NCBI RefSeq assembly: GCF_900475315.1
Contig: NZ_LS483369.1
Span: 806,001-870,000, forward strand
From: Neisseria cinerea
GTDB taxonomy: Bacteria > Pseudomonadota > Gammaproteobacteria > Burkholderiales > Neisseriaceae
Direction: 5' to 3'
Length of the DNA: 64,000 nt
Part shown: positions 36,390 to 47,352 of the stretch, in pieces
How positions within the stretch are numbered: the stretch's first letter is position 1
Layout: each line of letters begins with the position of its first letter
Notes under the pieces: model-generated
Told to the model about the DNA's origin: nothing
What the model saw: the letters and a program-made list of their open reading frames with translations, nothing else
Databases searched by the model: none
Program-made: the position numbers and the translations under genes

Positions 36390-38678
36390 ATGGCTCAAAC
36401 TACGCTAAAACCCATTGTTTTATCAATTCTTTTAATCAGCACTCCTATCCTCTCGCAAGCACATGGGACCGAACAGTCTATGGACTTAAAAACGGTTACC
36501 GTCGTCGGCAAAAGCCGTCCGCGCACCACTTCGGGGCTGTTGCACACTTCAACCGCCTCCGACAAAATCATCTCCGGCGATACTTTGCGCCAAAAAGCCG
36601 TCAACCTAGGCGATGCTTTAGACGGCGTACCGGGCATTCATGCCTCGCAATACGGCGGCGGCGCATCCGCTCCCGTCATTCGCGGTCAAACAGGCAGACG
36701 GATTAAAGTATTGAACCATCACGGCGAAACGGGTGACATGGCGGACTTCTCTCCAGACCATGCAATCATGGTGGACAGCGCCTTGTCGCAACAGATCGAA
36801 ATCCTGCGTGGCCCGGTTACGCTCTTGTACAGCTCAGGCAATGTGGCCGGTTTGGTCGATGTTGCCGATGGCAAAATCCCCGAAAAAATGCCTGAAAACG
36901 GCGTATCGGGCGAAGCCGGATTGCGTTTGAGCAGCGGCAATTTGGAAAAACTGACATCCGCAGGCATCAATATCGGTTTGGGCAACAACTTCGTGCTGCA
37001 TACCGAAGGCTTGTACCGCAAATCTGGCAATTACGCCGTACCGCGCTATCAAAAAGAAGAAGGCCGTCTGAAACGACTGCCCGACAGCCATGCCGATTCC
37101 AAAACAGGCAGCATCGGGCTGTCTTGGGTTGGCGAAAAAGGCTTTATCGGCGTGGCGTACAGCGACCGTCGCGACCAATACGGCCTGCCTGCCCACAGCC
37201 ACGAATACGATGATTGCCACGCCGACATCATCTGGCAAAAGAGTTTGATTAACAAACGCTATTTGCAGCTTTATCCGCACCTGTTGACCGAAGAAGACGT
37301 CGATTACGACAATCCGGGCTTGAGCTGCGGCTTCCACGACGACGATAATGCACACGCCCACACCCACAGCGGCAGACCGTGGATAGACCTGCGCAATAAA
37401 CGCTACGAACTCCGCGCCGAATGGAAGCAGCCTCTCCCAGGTTTTGAAGCCCTGCGCGTACATCTGAACCGCAACGACTACCACCACGACGAAAAAGCAG
37501 GCGATGCAGTAGAAAACTTCTTCAACAACAAAACACACAACGCCCGTATCGAGTTGCGCCACCAACCCATAGGCCGTCTGAAAGGCAGCTGGGGCGTGCA
37601 ATATTTGGGACAAAAATCCAGCGCACTTTCCGCCATTCCCGAAACCGTCCAACAACCAATGTTGATTGACAATAATGTGCGCCATTACAGCTTTTTCGGT
37701 GTAGAACAGGCAAACTGGGATAACTTCACGCTTGAAGGCGGCGTACGCGTGGAAAAACAAAAAGCCTCCATCCAGTACGACAAAGCATTGATTGATCGGG
37801 AAAACTACTACAACCAACCCCTACCCGACCTCGGCGCGCACCGCCAAACCGCCCGCTCGTTCGCACTTTCAGGCAACTGGTATTTCACGCCACACCACAA
37901 GCTCAGCCTGACTGCCTCCCATCAGGAACGCCTGCCGTCAACGCAAGAGCTGTACGCACACGGCAAACACGTTGCCACCAACACCTTTGAAGTCGGCAAC
38001 AAACACCTCAACAAAGAGCGTTCCAACAACATCGAAATCGCGCTGGGCTACGAAGGCGACCGCTGGCAATACAATCTGGCACTCTACCGCAACCGCTTCG
38101 GTAACTACATCTACGCCCAAACCTTAAACGACGGACGCGGCCCCAAATCCATCGAAGACGACAGCGAAATGAAGCTCGTGCGCTACAACCAATCCGGTGC
38201 GGACTTCTACGGCGCAGAAGGCGAAATCTACTTCAAACCGACACCGCGCTACCGCATCGGCGTTTCCGGCGACTATGTACGAGGCCGTCTGAAAAACCTG
38301 CCATCCCTACCTGGCAGGGAAGATGCTTACGGCAACCGTCCTTTCATCGCACAGGATAACCAAAATGCGCCTCGCGTTCCGGCTGCGCGCCTCGGCTTCC
38401 ACCTGAAAGCCTCGCTGACCGACCGTATCGATGCCAATTTGGACTACTACCGCGTGTTCGCCCAAAACAAACTCGCCCGCTACGAAACGCGCACGCCCGG
38501 ACACCATATGCTCAACGTCGGTGCAAACTACCGCCGCAATACGCGCTATGGCGAGTGGAATTGGTACGTCAAAGCCGACAACCTGCTCAACCAATCCGTT
38601 TACGCCCACAGCAGCTTCCTCTCTAATACGCCGCAAATGGGCCGCAGCTTTACCGGCGGCGTGAACGTGAAGTTTTAA
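36390..38678 (+). CDS. znuD: TonB-dependent zinc receptor ZnuD
   Basis: 762-residue outer-membrane receptor for zinc (and reportedly haem), energised by TonB. Signal peptide (about residues 1-24, ending SQAHG). A TonB box-like DLKTVTVVG is followed by the plug (VPGIHASQYGGGASAPVIRGQTG) and a 22-strand barrel ending in KF with a terminal aromatic. Metal-binding loops are visible as PAHSHEYDDCHAD and CGFHDDDNAHAHTHSG. Start: GAGAAG 8 bases upstream. A Zur box overlaps the promoter. Three AG-type DUS lie in frame inside the gene (37062, 37571, 38282), each encoding Gly-Arg-Leu-Lys. A protective vaccine-type antigen in meningococci. Confidence 0.96.
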   Translation: MAQTTLKPIVLSILLISTPILSQAHGTEQSMDLKTVTVVGKSRPRTTSGLLHTSTASDKIISGDTLRQKAVNLGDALDGVPGIHASQYGGGASAPVIRGQTGRRIKVLNHHGETGDMADFSPDHAIMVDSALSQQIEILRGPVTLLYSSGNVAGLVDVADGKIPEKMPENGVSGEAGLRLSSGNLEKLTSAGINIGLGNNFVLHTEGLYRKSGNYAVPRYQKEEGRLKRLPDSHADSKTGSIGLSWVGEKGFIGVAYSDRRDQYGLPAHSHEYDDCHADIIWQKSLINKRYLQLYPHLLTEEDVDYDNPGLSCGFHDDDNAHAHTHSGRPWIDLRNKRYELRAEWKQPLPGFEALRVHLNRNDYHHDEKAGDAVENFFNNKTHNARIELRHQPIGRLKGSWGVQYLGQKSSALSAIPETVQQPMLIDNNVRHYSFFGVEQANWDNFTLEGGVRVEKQKASIQYDKALIDRENYYNQPLPDLGAHRQTARSFALSGNWYFTPHHKLSLTASHQERLPSTQELYAHGKHVATNTFEVGNKHLNKERSNNIEIALGYEGDRWQYNLALYRNRFGNYIYAQTLNDGRGPKSIEDDSEMKLVRYNQSGADFYGAEGEIYFKPTPRYRIGVSGDYVRGRLKNLPSLPGREDAYGNRPFIAQDNQNAPRVPAARLGFHLKASLTDRIDANLDYYRVFAQNKLARYETRTPGHHMLNVGANYRRNTRYGEWNWYVKADNLLNQSVYAHSSFLSNTPQMGRSFTGGVNVKF
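37062..37073 (+). repeat. Intragenic AG-DUS in znuD, copy 1
   Basis: AGGCCGTCTGAA in the frame that gives Gly-Arg-Leu-Lys. Confidence 0.9.
37571..37582 (+). repeat. Intragenic AG-DUS in znuD, copy 2
   Basis: AGGCCGTCTGAA, again Gly-Arg-Leu-Lys. Confidence 0.9.
38282..38293 (+). repeat. Intragenic AG-DUS in znuD, copy 3
   Basis: AGGCCGTCTGAA, again Gly-Arg-Leu-Lys. Confidence 0.9.
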
Positions 38679-38694
38679 AATCGGACAGACAAAC

Positions 38695-38732
38695 AAAAAA
38701 GGTTTTCAGACGGCAGTCTGAAAACCTTTTTC
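38695..38732 (+). terminator. Terminator of znuD
   Basis: AAAAAGGTTTTCAGAC and GTCTGAAAACCTTTTT pair over a GGCA loop and end in a T run: a classic intrinsic terminator. It is built from one DUS core overlapping a half copy. Confidence 0.9.
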
Positions 38733-38761
38733 TTACTTTAAACCAATTTTAAAACCGGCAA

Positions 38762-38818
38762 TTAATCTTTCAACACATCTTGCACAGCCGCCTGAATCTT
38801 GGCAGCAGCAGCTTCGAT
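38762..38818 (-). pseudogene. Detached C-terminal tail of psd
   Basis: In-frame 18-codon extension past the psd stop, reading IEAAAAKIQAAVQDVLKD then TAA. Coding-like and amphipathic; see psd. Confidence 0.7.
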
Positions 38819-39541
38819 TTAGTGCTGTTCGGCAGATTGGTTTGCCGCTGTTTCAACCGAAGCAGCTTGTGAAACAGACTCGGCTTGAGGATCAGTCAGC
38901 GGCAAACGCGCCAATACAGTGCTGACGCCGGTAACTTTATCGCCAATCGCCACTTGCGCCTGCGCATCGACAGGCAGATACATATCCACGCGCGAACCGA
39001 AGCGGATAAAGCCATAGCGTTCGCCGCGAGACAGTTTCGCACCTGCTTGGGTGTAGCACAAAATACGGCGCGCCACCAAACCGGCCACTTGAACAAAAGT
39101 AATTTCACGACCGGAAGCCGTAGTCGCCAACACCGCATTACGTTCATTTTCCGTGCTGGCTTTGTCCAAATCCGCATTCACGAATTTACCTTTGTTATAG
39201 ACCACTTTTGTTACCGTACAATCGGCAGGCGATTTTTGCGAATGCACATTGAACACGTTCATAAAAATACTGATTTTCAAAGCATCGACATCACGATACG
39301 GATCGCGTGCGCGCTCGACCACCACGATACGGCCGTCAACAGGACTCAACACCGCTTCAGGATTTTGCGGAATCTCACGCGCAGGGTCGCGGAAAAACTG
39401 CAGGGCAAATACGGTAAACACCCAAAACGGCAAAGACCACCAGCCGCAGCACATCAACACCAGCAGGCTCAAAGCCAAACCGCCGCCGATAATCGGCCAG
39501 CCCTCACGGGCAATAATCGGGTGGGGGTAAAGACGGTTCAT
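38819..39541 (-). CDS. psd: Phosphatidylserine decarboxylase, shortened by a stop codon
   Basis: 240-residue PSD-A type enzyme that makes phosphatidylethanolamine. Two hydrophobic segments at the N-terminus, [15 protein letters not shown], the His in [13 protein letters not shown], and the self-cleavage site RFGSRVD (Gly-Ser, Ser becoming the pyruvoyl group at about residue 187). The catalytic part is intact. After the TAA at 38821-38819 the same frame continues for 18 sense codons (IEAAAAKIQAAVQDVLKD) to a second TAA at 38764-38762. The neisserial Psd proteins I recall end with this tail, so CAA to TAA has probably cut it. The tail is helical and outside the catalytic core, so activity may persist. 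Monocistronic. Confidence 0.9.
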
Positions 39542-39612
39542 TTGTCATCCTTCTATTCAAGCGGGTTAAAATTGCCGACATTATAGCGGAATCTGCCGTA
39601 CTCCGCTGGCAA

Positions 39613-39624
39613 ATGCCGTCTGAA
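39613..39624 (+). repeat. DNA uptake sequence, AT type, upstream of uvrA
   Basis: ATGCCGTCTGAA; with the reverse copy at 39677-39688 it brackets the uvrA promoter region instead of forming a tight hairpin. Confidence 0.9.
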
Positions 39625-39630
39625 TCCTGC

Positions 39631-39660
39631 TTAAGACGTTATTTGATAAAGTGCTACAAT
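39631..39660 (+). promoter_or_regulatory. Candidate uvrA promoter
   Basis: TTAAGA (39631-39636), 18 bases, TACAAT (39655-39660). Modest match, 33 bases upstream of the uvrA ATG. No SOS box visible, as expected for Neisseria. Confidence 0.4.
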
Positions 39661-39676
39661 AGCCGTTTCCTTCTTT

Positions 39677-39688
39677 TTCAGACGGCAT
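39677..39688 (-). repeat. DNA uptake sequence, AT type, in uvrA leader
   Basis: TTCAGACGGCAT ending 5 bases before the uvrA ATG, so it occupies the ribosome-binding region. Confidence 0.9.
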
Positions 39689-39693
39689 TCACC

Positions 39694-42543
39694 ATGTGCA
39701 ACCATCATCCCAAACATTCACACGACAACGACACCATCCGCATCCGCGGCGCGCGCACGCATAATTTGAAAAATGTCGATTTAGACATTCCGCGCCACAA
39801 GCTGGTGGTGGTAACAGGATTGTCAGGCAGCGGCAAATCGTCGCTGGCATTTGACACGCTGTATGCCGAAGGGCAGCGGCGCTATGTTGAGAGCCTTTCC
39901 GCCTATGCGCGGCAGTTTTTGCAGATGATGGACAAACCCGATGTCGATTTGATCGAAGGTCTGTCGCCCGCGATTTCCATCGAGCAGAAATCCACCAGCC
40001 ACAATCCGCGTTCCACCGTCGGCACGGTAACGGAAATCCATGACTATCTGCGCCTTTTGTACGCCCGCGTCGGCATGCCGTATTGCCCCGAACACAATCT
40101 GCCGCTATCCAGCCAAACCGTATCGCAGATGGTCGATGCCGTGTTGAAGCTGCCGGAAGACACGCGCGTGATGATTCTGGCGCCGGCGGTGCGCGAACGT
40201 AAGGGCGAATTTGTCGATTTCTTTGCCGACTTGCAGGCGCAAGGTTTTGCGCGGGTGCGCGTGGACGGCGAGGTCTATCAGCTGGACGAAGTGCCGAAGC
40301 TGGAAAAAAACATCAAGCACAATATCGACGTGGTCATCGACCGCGTGAAAGTGAAGGCTGACATCAAGCAGCGGCTAGCGGAAAGTTTTGAAACCGCGCT
40401 GCGCCACGGCAACGAACGCGCGTTGGCAATGGAAATGGAAAGCGGCGAAGAACATTGGTTCTCCGCGCGTTTTGCCTGTCCCGTATGTTCATACAGCTTG
40501 CCCGAATTAGAGCCGCGCCTGTTTTCCTTCAACAACCCGATGGGTTCCTGCCCAACTTGCGACGGCTTAGGCAACACCAATTTCTTCGACCCCGAAAAAG
40601 TAGTCGCCCATCCCGAACTGTCGTTGGCAACGGGCGCGATTGACGGTTGGGACAAGCGCAACCAGTTCTATTTCCAAATGATTCAGTCGCTGGCGCGGCA
40701 TTACGGTTTCGATGTGCAGGCTGCTTGGGAAACGCTGCCTGAAAAAGTCAAAAAAGTCATCCTGCACGGTTCGGGAAAGGAAGTGATTGATTTCACCTAC
40801 CTATCCGAACGCGGCACCACCTTCAACCGCAGCCACGCCTTCGAAGGCATCATCCCCAATCTCGAACGCCGCTACCGAGAAACAGACAGCGAAACCGTGC
40901 GCGAAAAACTGCGCGAATACCAAAACCACCGCGCCTGCCCGAGCTGCGGCGGCGCACGTTTGCGCAAAGAAGCGCGTTACGTTTACGTCAGCGGCGAACC
41001 CTTACACGAAGTTTCCGCCTGGCCGCTGACCAAAACCCACCAATTCTTTGAAACGCTGGATTTAGACGGCAACAAGAAACAAATCGCCGAAAAAATCCTC
41101 AAAGAAATCACCGAGCGGCTCGGCTTCCTGATTAACGTCGGGCTGGATTACCTGAATCTCTCCCGCTCCGCCGAAACTCTCTCCGGCGGCGAAGCCCAGC
41201 GCATCCGCCTCGCCAGCCAAATCGGCAGCGGCCTGACCGGCGTGATGTACGTTTTGGACGAACCCTCCATCGGCCTGCACCAGCGCGACAACGACCGCCT
41301 GCTCGCCACCCTCAAACGCCTGCGCGATTTGGGCAACAGCGTGATTGTGGTCGAACACGACGAAGACGCCATCCGCGAAGCTGATTTCGTCGTCGATATG
41401 GGTCCTGGCGCGGGCGAACACGGCGGCAACGTACTGATTGCCGACACCCCCGAAAACGTCGCCAAATGCGAAAAATCCGTTACCGGACAATACCTCAGCG
41501 GCAAAAAATCCATTGCCGTGCCGTCTGAACGCACGCCCGTCAATCCCGACCGAATGCTCGTCCTCAAAGGCGCGCGCGGCAACAACCTCAAAAACGTTAC
41601 CCTCGAACTGCCGCTCGGTTTGATTACCTGCATCACCGGCGTATCCGGCAGCGGTAAATCCACCCTGATTAACGACACCCTCGCCAAAATCACCGCCCGC
41701 GAACTCAACCGCGCCCAAGAAGAACCCGCCCCATACGACGACATCCACGGCCTCGAACACCTCGACAAAGTCATCAACGTCGACCAATCCCCCATCGGCC
41801 GCACCCCGCGCTCCAACCCCGCCACCTACACCGGCCTGTTCACCCCCATCCGCGAACTCTTCGCCGGCGTGCCCCTTTCGCGCGAACGCGGCTACAACGT
41901 CGGCAGATTCTCCTTCAACGTCAAAGGCGGCCGCTGCGAAGCCTGCCAAGGCGACGGCGTCATCAAAGTCGAAATGCACTTCCTGCCCGATGTGTATGTC
42001 CCCTGCGAAGTCTGCCACGGCAAACGCTACAACCGCGAAACCCTCGAAATCCAATACAAAGGCAAAAACATCAGCCAAGTCCTCGACATGACCGTCGAAG
42101 AAGCCCGCGAATTCTTCGACGCTGTCCCCACCGTATCGCGCAAACTGCAAACCCTGATGGACGTAGGCCTAGGCTACATCCGCCTCGGCCAGTCCGCCAC
42201 CACCCTCTCCGGCGGCGAAGCCCAGCGCGTCAAACTCGCCTTGGAACTCTCCAAACGCGACACCGGCAGAACGCTCTACATCCTCGACGAACCCACCACC
42301 GGCCTGCACTTCGCCGACATCGCCCTGCTGCTGGAAGTGATAGGCCGTCTGAAAGGCAAAGGCAACTCGATTGTGATTATCGAGCATAATCTTGACGTGA
42401 TTAAAACTGCGGATTGGATTGTGGACTTAGGGCCGGAAGGCGGCGATGGCGGGGGCAGGATTATTGCGGAAGGTAGCCCCGAGGAAGTGGCGAAGGTTAA
42501 GGGGAGTTATACTGGGAAGTATTTGAAAGTGGTTTTGGGATAA
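39694..42543 (+). CDS. uvrA: Excinuclease ABC subunit A
   Basis: 949-residue damage-recognition ATPase of nucleotide excision repair. Two ABC modules: Walker A GLSGSGKS (about residue 45) and GVSGSGKS (about residue 650); signature LSGGEAQR in both; Walker [11 protein letters not shown] and [10 protein letters not shown]. Zinc fingers CPVC...CPTC and CEAC...CEVC. The ATG at 39694 gives the standard length; an upstream start in a DUS is rejected. Odd point: from about 42354, just after an in-frame AG-DUS, codon choice changes from strongly C-ending to mixed, although the protein sequence stays normal (see findings). The A+T-rich AIPR gene starts 40 bases after the stop without a terminator. 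Confidence 0.97.
42342..42353 (+). repeat. Intragenic AG-DUS in uvrA
   Basis: AGGCCGTCTGAA in frame as Gly-Arg-Leu-Lys; marks the point where codon usage changes. Confidence 0.9.
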
Positions 42544-42583
42544 AACTACATAATTTTTTAATCGAGAAAAGGAAAGTATAAAT

Positions 42584-44287
42584 ATGAAAAATGTTATCTT
42601 AAATGGAAAACTGAATGAATTCAAAAAACGTCATTCAATAAGTAAAGAAAAAGAAGATACAGCCTTTGAGAAATTTGTAAATTATTCTATCTTAAATGCC
42701 GAATATTATGATTCTTTTAGTTTTAATAAGGTTTCTACTGGTACAGCTTATGGTATTGATGGAGTTGCAATTGCTATTAATGGGATCATTGTTAATGACC
42801 TAAAAGATGAAATTACAACATATACAAATGCAGACTTTGATGCCAAGTTTACATTTATACAAACTAAAACGTCAGATTCTTTTGATAAGGGAGACTTTCT
42901 AAAGTTTATTGAATCTATTGCCAAGTTTTTTCTAGATGATGAAAAATATTTTCCACCTGAGATAAAGAAACTATATGGTATTCGACATACTATTTATGAG
43001 CGTGCTGCAAAACTAAAAAAACTACCTGAAGTTTCTATTTATTATGTTTATTCTGGATATGCGAATTCATCTTTATATGAAACTATAGAATTTTCAAAGG
43101 AGCAACTCAGAAAACAGGTGGAACGATATGTAAGTAAAATTAATTGCCACATTTTTGATAGTGAGCAAATTAGCATTGCTTATAGAGAAGCACAAAACGA
43201 GATAACTAAAGATTTTAAATTAGAAAAACATATTACTCTTCCGCAAATAAGTGGAACTGAATATGCATATTTAGGAGTTATAAAATGTAAAGATTTTGTT
43301 GAATTAATCTCAAGAGCCACTGGAGAAATCAATAAAGGGCTTTTTGCTGATAATGTCAGAGATTTTTTAGGAAATAACTTAATTAATAATAGTATTAATA
43401 AGACCATTGAGGATATAAATGAAAAAGATAAATTTGCATTATTAAATAACGGTATCACAATTGTAGCCAAAGAAATTAGTAGTAGAGGCGATATATTCAC
43501 TATTAGAAAATTTCAAATCGTCAATGGATGTCAAACAAGTCATGTTATATTTAATGCCAAGAATAATTTAGATGACAATATGTACGTAACATTAAAGTTG
43601 ATACAAACTTCAGATATCAATTTAACTAATAGAATAATTGAGACAACAAATAGTCAATCAAGAGTAATGAAGGAAGCTTTGGTTGCAATTAATCCTTATC
43701 ATAGAAAATTAGAAGATTACTTCTCAGGTATGCGTCATAGTGGATACAGATATTATTATGAGAGAAGATCTCATCAGTTTGATGATTTTGATGATATTAC
43801 TAGAAATGATATTGTTACTATTCCCTCGCTGATTAAGTCATTCGTATCAATTATGCTTTCTGAACCTCATAAGGTGCACTATTATTATGGAACGTTAATC
43901 AATCAATACATGCAAAAAGAAGATAATAGTCACAAAGATGTAAATCTATTTGATGAGGAAACTCATCCAAGAATATATTTTATTGCGCATCATTTGCTTA
44001 TGAAAGTAAGTGAATCAATTAATTTAAGTAAAAAATCATTAAGTCCATGGCGTTATCATATCGCTTTTCTAATTAAAAATGAGATATTGCCTAATTTAGA
44101 TTTAAAACAGAAATATAAAGATAAAAATATTTCTGAGTTTTTGCAAGTAATAACGGATAATTTTCAGGATTCATTTGAACGTGTTGTAAATTTTTTAAAT
44201 TCCAAAAAGTTAACAATCCAAAAGGACCAGAATAGAAATCCTAAAATTACTAAGGAATTGATAGAGGAATATAAAAGAAAGCCGTAG
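42584..44287 (+). CDS. AIPR-family protein (abortive phage infection type)
   Basis: 567 residues, no signal peptide or membrane segment. The central motifs NNGITIVAKE (about residue 290), FQIVNGCQTSHVIF (about residue 308) and IIETTNSQSRVMKEAL (about residue 350) are those of the AIPR domain (PF10592), named after an abortive-infection phage-resistance protein of Lactococcus. An N-terminal part (about residues 1-150) includes FTFIQTKTSDSFDKGDF, close to the Q-x-K element of restriction-like nucleases. Clearly A+T-rich against its neighbours and without any DUS, so recently acquired. A good AAGGAAAG site stands upstream. It may be transcribed from uvrA. No partner gene is left next to it. Confidence 0.85.
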   Translation: MKNVILNGKLNEFKKRHSISKEKEDTAFEKFVNYSILNAEYYDSFSFNKVSTGTAYGIDGVAIAINGIIVNDLKDEITTYTNADFDAKFTFIQTKTSDSFDKGDFLKFIESIAKFFLDDEKYFPPEIKKLYGIRHTIYERAAKLKKLPEVSIYYVYSGYANSSLYETIEFSKEQLRKQVERYVSKINCHIFDSEQISIAYREAQNEITKDFKLEKHITLPQISGTEYAYLGVIKCKDFVELISRATGEINKGLFADNVRDFLGNNLINNSINKTIEDINEKDKFALLNNGITIVAKEISSRGDIFTIRKFQIVNGCQTSHVIFNAKNNLDDNMYVTLKLIQTSDINLTNRIIETTNSQSRVMKEALVAINPYHRKLEDYFSGMRHSGYRYYYERRSHQFDDFDDITRNDIVTIPSLIKSFVSIMLSEPHKVHYYYGTLINQYMQKEDNSHKDVNLFDEETHPRIYFIAHHLLMKVSESINLSKKSLSPWRYHIAFLIKNEILPNLDLKQKYKDKNISEFLQVITDNFQDSFERVVNFLNSKKLTIQKDQNRNPKITKELIEEYKRKP

Positions 44288-44304
44288 CCTGCATATCCAA
44301 CCGA

Positions 44305-44391
44305 CCGCGTGCGTGCTGCGCCACACACCCTACCTGTGAATCACTCGGAATTTCAAAACCAACGTGTAGGGTATGTACGGTACGCACGCGG
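44305..44391. repeat. REP-like inverted pair
   Basis: CCGCGTGCGTGCTGCGCCAC plus ACACCCTAC (44305-44333) is mirrored by GTAGGGTATGTACGGTACGC plus ACGCGG (44366-44391). GC-rich arms in an A+T-rich setting, as in REP/BIME units associated with RAYT transposases. Confidence 0.65.
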
Positions 44392-44422
44392 CTGCTTGAT
44401 TGATGGCTTGCCATTTCAACTT

Positions 44423-44434
44423 TTCAGACGGCCT
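44423..44434 (-). repeat. DNA uptake sequence, AG type
   Basis: TTCAGACGGCCT, followed 8 bases later by a truncated CGTCTGAAA that may be a decayed partner. Confidence 0.85.
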
Positions 44435-44528
44435 CCAATATCGTCTGAAAACATAAGCTTCAACAAAGTTAAACCTTAAAAAACAAACCATTCCTTCTCC
44501 AACATCCAAACCACAAACAAAAATCCTA

Positions 44529-44600
44529 TGGCGCTTTATCTCAGAAACTTCATTGCCAACGGCACATTCTTTTTCACCCTCAAACTCGCTAATCTGTATT
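44529..44600 (+). pseudogene. Fragment of a REP-associated (IS200-like) transposase
   Basis: ATG followed by MALYLRNFIANGTFF, like the N-terminus of RAYT/Y1 transposases (pattern Y-R-R-x(4)-GGTYFFT). The frame then leaves the family pattern and soon stops. No catalytic HUH or Tyr region remains. Confidence 0.5.
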
Positions 44601-44709
44601 GGTATAAGATTGTCTAATATATCCGATCCTTACCTATCGTAAAATCATATGCTGATGTTTAAACGGTTCAACCGGACATGCCTGAATAACAGGGTTGATT
44701 GGCTAATAT

Positions 44710-44742
44710 AAAACTGCACTTCGGAAACCGGAGTGCAGTTTT
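44710..44742. terminator. Strong hairpin terminator of dctA
   Basis: AAAACTGCACTTCGG and CCGGAGTGCAGTTTT pair across a 3-base loop, with A and T runs on both sides. It is not DUS-based, unlike most terminators here. Confidence 0.9.
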
Positions 44743-44767
44743 ATTCGTTTAGTTTATATTTGACGGT

Positions 44768-46087
44768 TTAATGCGAGGCATCAGTATGAACGGTCAGTTT
44801 TCCATTCATAGCATCATCAAGTTTATCCTTGTCCAAGGATTTTTCCCAACGGGCAACCACAATCGCAGCACAAGCATTACCCACCAGGTTAGTCAGCGCC
44901 CTACATTCGGACATAAAGCGGTCGATACCCAAAATCAGTGCCATTCCTTCTACCGGCAAGCTGGGGACAACAGACAGTGTTGCCGCCAAGGTAATAAAAC
45001 CTGCGCCGGTTACACCTGCCGCACCTTTTGAACTGAGCATTGCCACCAACAACAAAGTAATCTGTTGCGTGATAGTCAGATCGGTATTGGTGGCCTGTGC
45101 AATAAACAATGCGGCCATGGTCATGTAAATATTGGTACCGTCAAGGTTAAAGGAATATCCTGTAGGGATAACCAGACCGACCACAGACTTCTTACAACCT
45201 GCTGCTTCCATTTTCTGCATCAATGTCGGCAGTGCGGCTTCTGAAGAGGAAGTTCCCAGTACCAGCCACATTTCTTCTTTAATATAACGGATCATTTTTA
45301 AGATAGAGAACCCGTTGTAACGTGCCACCGCACCAAGGACAAAAACGACAAACAATAATGATGTTAGATAGAAAGTGGCCACCAAAAGAATCAGATTACT
45401 GATGGAATGCAGACCATATTTCCCAACGGTAAACGCCATAGCACCTAATGCCCCCAACGGTGCGGCCTTCATCAATATGGAAACCACTTTGAACATCGGG
45501 GTTGTTGCCGCCAGAAGCAAGTCGGTGATAGGACGCGCTTTCTCGCCTACGGAAGCAAGGGAAATGCCGAATAAGACGGAAACGAATAAGACTTGCAGAA
45601 TATTACCTTCCGTCAGGGGGCTGACAACCGTAGTCGGAATAATATTCATCAAAAAACCAACCAAGGTGCTGTCATGTGCCTTCTCAACATATTCAGAAAC
45701 CTTTTCGGAATGCAATGTCGCGGGGTCAATATTGAGTCCTGCTCCAGGTTGGACAATATTGGCTACTATCAGGCCAATAACCAATGCAAGAGTCGAAAAG
45801 GTAATGAAATAAAGCATTGCTTTACCCGCAACGCGGCCAACCGACTTCATATCATTCATACCGGCAATACCGGTAACGACGGTCAGGAAAATAACCGGTG
45901 CAATAATCATCTTGACCAGCTTGATGAACGCTTCCCCCAAAGGCTTCAAGCTTGCCCCGAAATGAGGAAAGAAATTGCCAAGTATAATACCGATGATGAT
46001 GGCAACGATAACTTGGAAATACAGGCTGTGATAAAATTTTGGCCTGCCTTGCGGGAGTTGCGGCGTATCTGGAGCAGTATGCAGCAT
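44768..46087 (-). CDS. dctA: C4-dicarboxylate transport protein DctA
   Basis: 439-residue inner-membrane symporter of the DAACS family that imports succinate, fumarate and malate with protons or sodium. It parallels E. coli DctA closely: KSLYFQ-like [47 protein letters not shown], the serine-rich re-entrant loop [10 protein letters not shown] and [15 protein letters not shown]. About eight membrane segments plus two hairpin loops. A GAGAGGA box precedes the ATG. The neighbouring sucCD and the sdh/suc block fit a dicarboxylate carrier better than a glutamate carrier, but GltP-like transport of glutamate or aspartate is not excluded. Confidence 0.88.
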
Positions 46088-46461
46088 AGTGTGTCCTCTC
46101 TTAATATTCAGTTCTAATTTGAAATAAAATGTAATTTACCCACTAATTTAAAAAAATACAACAAAATTTAACCGATGCTTTATATCTTTATGAGTTTAAA
46201 TATATAAAAATTTAAAATTGTTAACGATATGGGAAATTTTGATATTTCCTACCTTCCAAACAGCAATGAAAAGCAAGACGTAACCTGCCTGTCCAAGCCG
46301 CCTTAACATAGCGTACCTTATATTCCAGTAACGACCTGCTTGAAACTTTATGCAGGTCAAACCTATTAAACATATGCTGAATCAAGATAAAACAAATGCC
46401 GCCTAAAACCAGATTTCCGGTTTCAGACGGCATTTAATCTTTAATCAATCAGATGATTGAT
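46088..46461. other. dctA upstream region and end of sucD
   Basis: 374 A+T-rich bases with no gene. Contains a small hairpin GACCTGC/GCAGGTC (46333-46358) of unknown purpose and the DUS-type terminator of sucD (46394-46435). The dctA promoter must lie in 46090-46200 but no clear boxes stand out. Confidence 0.45.
46394..46435 (-). terminator. Degenerate DUS hairpin after sucD
   Basis: AAATGCCGCCTAAAACC against GGTTTCAGACGGCATTT. The right copy is a true DUS; the left copy carries two changes but still pairs through G-T. Confidence 0.75.
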
Positions 46462-47352
46462 TTACACCAAACCTTTTGCTTTCAACACTTCCAGCATGGT
46501 AGTACCCAACTCGGCAGGGCTGCGGGTGTAAGCGATACCGGCTTTTTCGAAAGCGGCGAATTTTTCTTCGGCAGTACCTTTACCGCCGGAAATAATCGCA
46601 CCGGCGTGGCCCATACGTTTGCCTTTAGGAGCGGTAACACCAGCAATGTAACCTACAACAGGTTTGGTTACGTTGGATTGGATGTATTCGGCTGCTTCTT
46701 CTTCCGCAGTACCGCCGATTTCACCAATCATGATGATGGCGTCAGTATCCGGGTCTTCTTGGAAAAGTTTCAGTGCGTCGATTTGATTCATACCAGGAAT
46801 CGGGTCGCCGCCGATACCAATACAGGTTGATTGACCCAAGCCCAGTTTGGTGGTTTGTGCCACAGCTTCGTAAGTCAATGTACCGGAACGGGAAATAATA
46901 CCAATGCGGCCCGGAGTGTGGATGTGGCCCGGCATAATACCGATTTTGCACTCGCCCGGAGTAATCACGCCCGGGCAGTTAGGGCCGACCAAACGTGTGC
47001 CGTTGCCGTTGGTTTCCAAGTAGCGTTTGGCTTTGAGCATGTCCAGAGTCGGTACGCCTTCGGTAATCACAACCACCAAGCCTACGCCGGAATCAACCGC
47101 TTCAACGATAGAATCCAAAACAAACGGAGCGGGAACGTAAATTACGGATGCGTCTGCGCCGGTTTCTTTAACCGCTTCTTTCATGGTGTTGAATACAGGC
47201 AGGTTCAGGTGGGTTTGACCGCCTTTGCCCGGGGTAACGCCGCCGACAACTTTAGTGCCGTAAGCCAGAGCTTGTTCGGAGTGGAAAGTACCGTTTTTAC
47301 CGGTGAAACCTTGAACCAATACTTTGGTGTCTTTATTAATCAATACGCTCAT
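46462..47352 (-). CDS. sucD: Succinyl-CoA synthetase alpha subunit
   Basis: 296 residues; with SucC it converts succinyl-CoA to succinate with formation of ATP/GTP. N-terminal CoA-binding Rossmann domain ([27 protein letters not shown]), then the ligase domain with the phospho-histidine in [20 protein letters not shown] (about residue 247). AAGGAGA lies just upstream of ATG, 10 bases after the sucC stop. Last gene of the TCA block. Confidence 0.98.

Follow-up and report, generated by a model that had tools for sequence, protein, structure and literature searches.

The described systems closest to the locus analysed here are: (i) the AIPR/AbiU1 family (PF10592, PADLOC AbiU, PHROG 1841); (ii) GmrSD, BrxU and SspE, in which a ParB/sulfiredoxin-fold domain is joined to a nuclease; (iii) the defence effectors Avs4, HamA of Hachiman, Cap4, Can2 and LmuA; and (iv) the minimal mobile elements of Neisseria. 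The locus lies in a window (i.e., the whole stretch of DNA analysed) of 64,000 nucleotides from Neisseria cinerea (assembly GCF_900475315.1, contig NZ_LS483369.1, positions 806,001 to 870,000 of the forward strand), and it consists of an AIPR/AbiU-family gene in a slot behind uvrA. In general terms, the gene product is probably an anti-phage effector that acts as a single protein of the AIPR/AbiU family and would combine a PD-(D/E)xK nuclease with a ParB-type switch; the gene would travel as a passenger of an exchange slot.

According to the accessible part of Makarova et al. (PMC3506569), AIPR proteins begin with a HEPN RNase domain. In the available text of Anantharaman et al. (2013), AbiU2, encoded by the second of the two lactococcal AbiU genes, is classed as HEPN and AIPR is absent (PMC3710099). 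No assignment of a PD-(D/E)xK or ParB fold to AIPR was found in the accessible texts of the literature searched, most subscription papers excepted. As regards mobility, a minimal mobile element is described, in the part of the source that was available, as the occurrence of different whole-gene cassettes at a single site with shared flanks (PMC3082526). GTAG-tagged palindromes, hypothesised to be moved by RAYT (REP-associated tyrosine transposase; REP, repetitive extragenic palindromic) proteins, occur in Neisseria according to the accessible text on them (PMC3733652).

The window protein resembles AIPR/AbiU1 in its full-length match, invariant motifs, length and mobile context. Nevertheless, it differs in three respects: (i) the slot has no AbiU2-like second gene; (ii) its nuclease is assigned here to the PD-(D/E)xK type, against HEPN in the literature; and (iii) the C-terminal tail that its nearest relatives carry is missing.

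A foreign gene of the AIPR/AbiU family

The gene begins 40 bp after the uvrA stop codon and, exactly as delimited in the initial annotation, is an open reading frame (ORF) without internal stop. It is a real gene and a member of the AIPR/AbiU family. Pfam AIPR (PF10592) matches residues 254-529 (E=4.4e-43; 148.5 bits, cut-off 25), PADLOC AbiU matches the full length (residues 2-564; E=2.6e-105, 351.6 bits), and the PHROG match is to the "Abi alpha-like" family (PHROG 1841). The family motifs FxxNVR, NNGxT, NGxQTS, TNxQ and RR, invariant in 126 sequences, are present here, as are all the stretches quoted when the family was first suggested (NNGITIVA, VNGCQTSHVIF, TTNSQS and DAKFTF-IQTKTSDS). 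NCBIfam and PDB sequence searches (the latter also with a profile) gave no match for the protein. Family and context point to a role in phage defence.

The gene had been described as A+T-rich, free of DNA uptake sequences (DUS) and not native, and the figures agree. Its composition is foreign: G+C is 27.9%, vs. 56.8% in uvrA and 48.7% in the window, and GC3 (G+C at third codon positions) is 19%, vs. 71% in uvrA. The DUS 10-mer GCCGTCTGAA, a sign of the genus Neisseria, has 60 copies in the window (both strands counted) and none in the ORF, against 1.6 expected per 1704 bp; taken alone, this absence is weak evidence of foreignness. Only 6 of the 46 genomes of the genus (that of the window among them) have an AIPR gene, which rules out a native neisserial gene. 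The window genome, a single contig of 1.83 Mb, yielded one.

Within the phylum, 39 of 398 genomes (own genome counted) carry a relative, as do 18 phage and 70 plasmid records; carriers include prophage Fels-2 and mycobacteriophage Thyatira (integrase gene close by). An alignment-based search of the genome collection gave at least 567 relatives among the 596 stretches listed, of which 80 were retained, while a single-protein search of the same collection gave 55 stretches and no relative. Alignment A2 holds 125 relatives plus the window protein (126 rows), after removal of 12 loci that were near-duplicates or cut and of rows with a low score or short coverage; alignment A3 holds 92 of 116 sub-sequences plus the window protein. 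The AIPR gene of genome G030 (L003/L227) contains an N run; it was kept out of alignments A1-A3 and entered the tree with its first 305 codons.

The initial annotation pictured a nuclease-AIPR fusion acting alone. Standalone action is supported, because no recurrent neighbour that could be a fixed partner gene was seen across 80 loci; that the fusion is special to this gene does not hold, the nuclease residues being near-universal in the aligned branch. By eye, a DUF262/GmrSD_N-like gene (L041:1447-2550, - strand) and a D12-type methylase-like gene (L045:207-1070, + strand) lie beside close AIPR relatives, and similar genes are also cargo of the neisserial uvrA slot.

Domain architecture of the AIPR protein

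A D...QxK core of the PD-(D/E)xK type had been guessed for the N-terminal part, and both residue conservation and predicted structure bear the guess out. D59 and Q93 are present in all 126 rows of A2, E29 in 123 and K95 in 117, and the complete E29-D59-Q93-K95 set in 114. The AlphaFold2 model of the protein is confident (pLDDT 93); residues 1-207 are predicted as alpha/beta and not as a helical bundle, residues 3-207 match FokI/MspJI-type PD-(D/E)xK nucleases by structural comparison (here, as elsewhere in this work, between predicted structures), and the predicted structure contains the PD-(D/E)xK core fold. Foldseek by itself gave no significant structural match. Judging from the model, the protein would be an active nuclease. 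At residue 95, seven rows of A2 carry E (QxE), one D and one T; these proteins could be inactive or altered variants.

Avs4, HamA of Hachiman, Cap4, Can2 and LmuA have a similar PD-(D/E)xK domain by structural comparison, but the window protein has no helicase, CARF/SAVED or STAND sensor, and its second part is ParB-like. This AIPR domain, with the motifs NNGxT at residues 288-292, NGxQ at 314-317 and NxQ at 356-358, has a ParB/sulfiredoxin fold by structure prediction. Its structural matches to that fold have modest scores and include SspE and, poorly, BrxU. Kinship to ParB at the sequence level was not significant with hhalign (probability 0.08%), the sole alignment pairing VNGCQ with the ParB motif AGERR. 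Going by the predicted fold, the domain probably binds a nucleotide.

The union of a ParB/sulfiredoxin-fold domain with a nuclease, shared with GmrSD, BrxU and SspE, leads to the best-surviving alternative, namely that the protein attacks modified or odd phage DNA directly, as a type IV-like restriction enzyme such as GmrSD/BrxU or SspE, and is not an abortive-infection effector. It is possible, though we give it the smaller share of belief, as the nuclease of GmrSD and SspE is of the HNH type while that of the window protein is PD-(D/E)xK and N-terminal, and hmmscan up to E=10 found no GmrSD_N or GmrSD_C (HNH) match in it. Besides, an Abi phenotype is part of the family name, reportedly going back, to judge by its title, to Dai et al. 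2001. We retain the single-protein anti-phage effector, with phage or cell DNA as its target, as the preferred reading.

The C-terminal part raises a different doubt. Thirty of the 126 rows extend 66-93 residues beyond the end of the window protein, all of them within the 35 rows of at least 620 aa, and within the clade of nine to which the window protein belongs, seven members carry 79-94 residues past residue 564 and the eighth (L005) is likewise tailed. The final codons of the window ORF, AGA AAG CCG TAG, are the start of the slot repeat AGCAAGCCGTAG. On the simplest reading of these sequences, the tail would have been lost at the right slot junction and the stop codon supplied by the repeat. 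The window copy might then be a decaying, non-functional remnant that has lost an extra C-terminal domain, as the eight tailed clade members and the position of the last three codons and stop inside the repeat suggest. We consider this unlikely: 91 of the 126 rows (window counted) are shorter than 620 aa, so a protein lacking so long a tail is common, and all 567 codons are open, with the invariant residues retained and a confident model.

Among nine tailed proteins scanned, a cold-shock domain scored above cut-off in L050, L063, L070, L093 and L121; L049 matched S1 just under the cut-off, L048 scored far below, and L042 and L046, the two nearest relatives scanned, matched neither cold-shock nor S1. 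The cold-shock domain at the C-terminus of some AIPR proteins hints at sensing of RNA or single-stranded nucleic acid.

Table 1. Features of the uvrA slot and of the AIPR/AbiU-family gene (coordinates in the window).
Feature	Position	Strand	Basis or remark
uvrA, constant left slot edge	39613..42543	+	ORF
AIPR/AbiU-family gene	42584..44287	+	567 aa, ATG start, 28% G+C, profile matches
PD-(D/E)xK nuclease-like domain, residues 1-207	42584..43204	+	
Putative active site F28-E29, D59, Q93-x-K95	codons 42665-42670, 42758-42760, 42860-42868	+	
ParB/sulfiredoxin-like (AIPR) domain, residues 208-361	43205..43666	+	
Mostly helical C-terminal part, residues 362-567, invariant R394-R395	43667..44284	+	alignment, model
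Right-hand REP-like repeat region	44276..44440	+	opens with AGAAAGCCGTAG, which forms the three final codons plus the stop of the AIPR gene
Broken RAYT remnant, first ~30 codons	44528..44623	+	tblastn E=3e-7
Terminator-like hairpin, interval between slot and dctA	44708..44744	+	17-pair stem, T run; roughly one such site is expected by chance in the region
dctA-like transporter gene, variable right neighbour	44768..46087	-	here only in the window genome among 44 loci

The exchange slot behind uvrA

Of the 46 genomes of the genus (own counted; one genome per species), 44 gave a match to the C-terminal 280 aa of uvrA, at 91-100% identity. The stretch behind uvrA was read in these 44 genomes over at most 7 kb (in the window genome, 8 kb), with less than 7 kb readable in five slots that reach contig ends. 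In 31 of the 44, an ORF of 100 aa or more on the uvrA strand begins 70 bp or less after the uvrA stop, and G+C is below 40% in 29 of those 31 ORFs (median 29.5%); the slot AIPR gene of genome G021 starts at 183 bp and so falls outside the 31. The same test behind sucD gave 0 of 18 (19 stretches, one of them without sucD; among the 18, that of G031 is cut by a contig end).

The main cargo was scanned individually in 32 of the 44 slots (all but G025, G453, G027, G033, G005, G015, G001, G455, G022, G032, G012 and G456), and a further scan of 46 cargo proteins gave family totals only. By our own classing, 21 of the 32 slots hold defence- or toxin-type cargo (above cut-off or with a strong PADLOC match): (i) AIPR in five; (ii) AAA_15/AAA_21 ATPases in six; (iii) GmrSD_N in two; (iv) TIR-STAND or PDC-S60 in two; and (v) one each of NB-ARC/NACHT, HATPase, ResIII/UvrD helicase, PD-Lambda-5, a type II restriction enzyme and Fic. 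Since HATPase, helicase and Fic also occur outside defence, the count without them is 18 of 32. The remaining 11 cargos have no, weak or uninformative family matches; among these, that of G013 is narrowly above the NPHP3_N cut-off and that of G014 matches a family of unknown function. The comparison of the uvrA interval across the genus, which the initial annotation had proposed, shows accessory genes that differ between species, and AIPR not in all. Seen against the 44 uvrA loci and their defence-rich cargo, the locus in the window is accordingly an instance of a general exchange slot, wider than earlier claimed.

Some slot genes are candidates for new defence genes. An 803-aa protein is present in two species (L193:4566-6974, - strand; L195:228-2636, + strand); the L193 copy is without a Pfam match, and its PADLOC match, to a methyltransferase, is weak. 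Further candidates without clear family are L203:248-1609, L204:251-1687, L212:5462-6532 (- strand), L194:504-1313 and L230:236-2374.

The slot had been drawn as a minimal mobile element between uvrA and dctA. The 43 other uvrA loci, where varied cassettes occupy one place between conserved flanks, strengthen that picture, with uvrA as the constant edge, but dctA as a conserved edge is rejected: of the 45 other genomes of the genus, 4 gave a close dctA (76-79% identity), none of them within the 7 kb read behind uvrA. The right slot edge is instead the REP/RAYT-like repeat region. The repeat start AGCAAGCCGTAG occurs in 18 of 44 slots and the 9-mer AAGCCGTAG in 20 of 44, window included (within 4 kb), and the DNA that follows the repeat start is 79-92% alike over at least 80 bp in 17 of 43 other slots. 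The cargo of G021 and G035 likewise ends on the TAG of the slot repeat. The supposed RAYT remnant proved correct, as 32 residues match the start of another species' intact RAYT, with a stop; the intact protein matches Pfam Y1_Tnp, and 17 of the 44 slots have a RAYT-like ORF farther along.

Minimal mobile elements of Neisseria were reportedly described by Saunders and Snyder in 2002 and by Snyder and colleagues in 2007. The uvrA slot is like them in its differing whole-gene cassettes between the same flanks and in the DUS within those flanks (here at 42344 and 44423); it differs in that one flank is a REP/RAYT-like repeat and not a second conserved gene. In the literature searched, as far as its text was accessible and with the 2007 repertoire paper outside it, no printed description of the uvrA slot was found.

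At the left edge, a low-power scan found no + strand promoter- or terminator-like site between uvrA and the AIPR gene, and Rfam at gathering threshold found no RNA element in 38000-47000. An apparent G+C drop at the end of uvrA was an artefact of a 300-bp averaging segment that extended into the AIPR gene; within uvrA, the last 231 bp have 51.5% G+C vs. 57.3% before. The last uvrA codons after the conserved SYTGKYLK vary in sequence and number among species (L191-L234), which is why the exchange junction is taken to reach into the end of uvrA. In L233 (G009), uvrA is apparently frameshifted near its end, with an early stop directly before the slot.

AIPR genes arrived at the slot repeatedly. 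Five of the six in the genus lie behind uvrA (window, G030, G021, G460 and G451; that of G002 is elsewhere), and a tree of 166 family members requires five separate origins for them, all forced by branches with support of at least 95 (quick tree method; the branch of G460 is very long, and G030 is represented by only 305 residues). GmrSD_N genes sit at the slot in 2 of 25 cases (27 rows, two split matches merged), vs. 5 of 6 for AIPR (Fisher test, p 0.0007, computed after seeing the data). AAA_15 was set aside as a second comparison family, since it seems to be matched by core genes such as SMC/RecN. A placement behind uvrA is not general beyond the genus: among relative loci L003 to L190, with limited flanks, uvrA is present in two, i.e., G030 and L072 (~0.9 kb, opposite strand). 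Conceivably, the AIPR nuclease itself cuts the empty or foreign-occupied uvrA-repeat junction, in incoming or resident DNA, and the cassette is then copied in like a homing element, the gene serving in defence as well. We hold this to be very unlikely; if true, it would account for five unrelated AIPR genes at the same site, in contrast to the scattered distribution of another defence family.

Proposed mechanism and meaning

In the preferred reading, that of a single-protein anti-phage effector, the N-terminal 207 residues would be a PD-(D/E)xK nuclease (E29-D59-Q93-x-K95) held off by the ParB/sulfiredoxin-fold AIPR domain, which probably binds a nucleotide. Upon sensing a phage-made signal or phage DNA, the nuclease would be released and would cut the DNA of the phage or, in abortive infection, that of the cell. 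Transformation, with homologous recombination in the DUS-bearing flanks, would be the most likely route by which cassettes are swapped between the end of uvrA and the REP/RAYT-like repeat, and the slot genes would probably be read from the uvrA transcript.

A DndB-like regulator of DNA modification with no nuclease role is very improbable, since the window ORF list has no modification gene beside the AIPR gene, the nuclease residues are invariant and hhalign against one DndB was not significant. The least credible alternative, a HEPN RNase toxin, has the printed statement of Makarova et al. in its favour (PMC3506569, accessible part), an idea to which the HEPN class of AbiU2 (PMC3710099, available text) perhaps gave rise, but it is rejected for the branch studied on account of the wrong fold, an alpha/beta N-terminal part that by prediction resembles restriction nucleases, and of the lack of a conserved Rx4-6H (no His column of at least 70% anywhere, no Arg column of at least 50% in residues 1-207, and R-x4-6-H of any kind there in just 34 of 126 rows).

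The printed HEPN assignment is thus contradicted for the aligned AIPR branch. AbiU/AIPR is present in defence catalogues, yet no mechanism for it was found in the literature searched, as far as its text was accessible; the model of a nuclease with a ParB-type switch gives defined residues, namely D59, Q93 and K95 on the one hand and N314, Q317, N356 and Q358 on the other. Furthermore, the uvrA slot is a place from which candidate defence genes of the genus can be read off, the 11 of 32 scanned cargos without a clear defence family being leads, and it could couple defence genes to the transcription of a DNA-repair gene.
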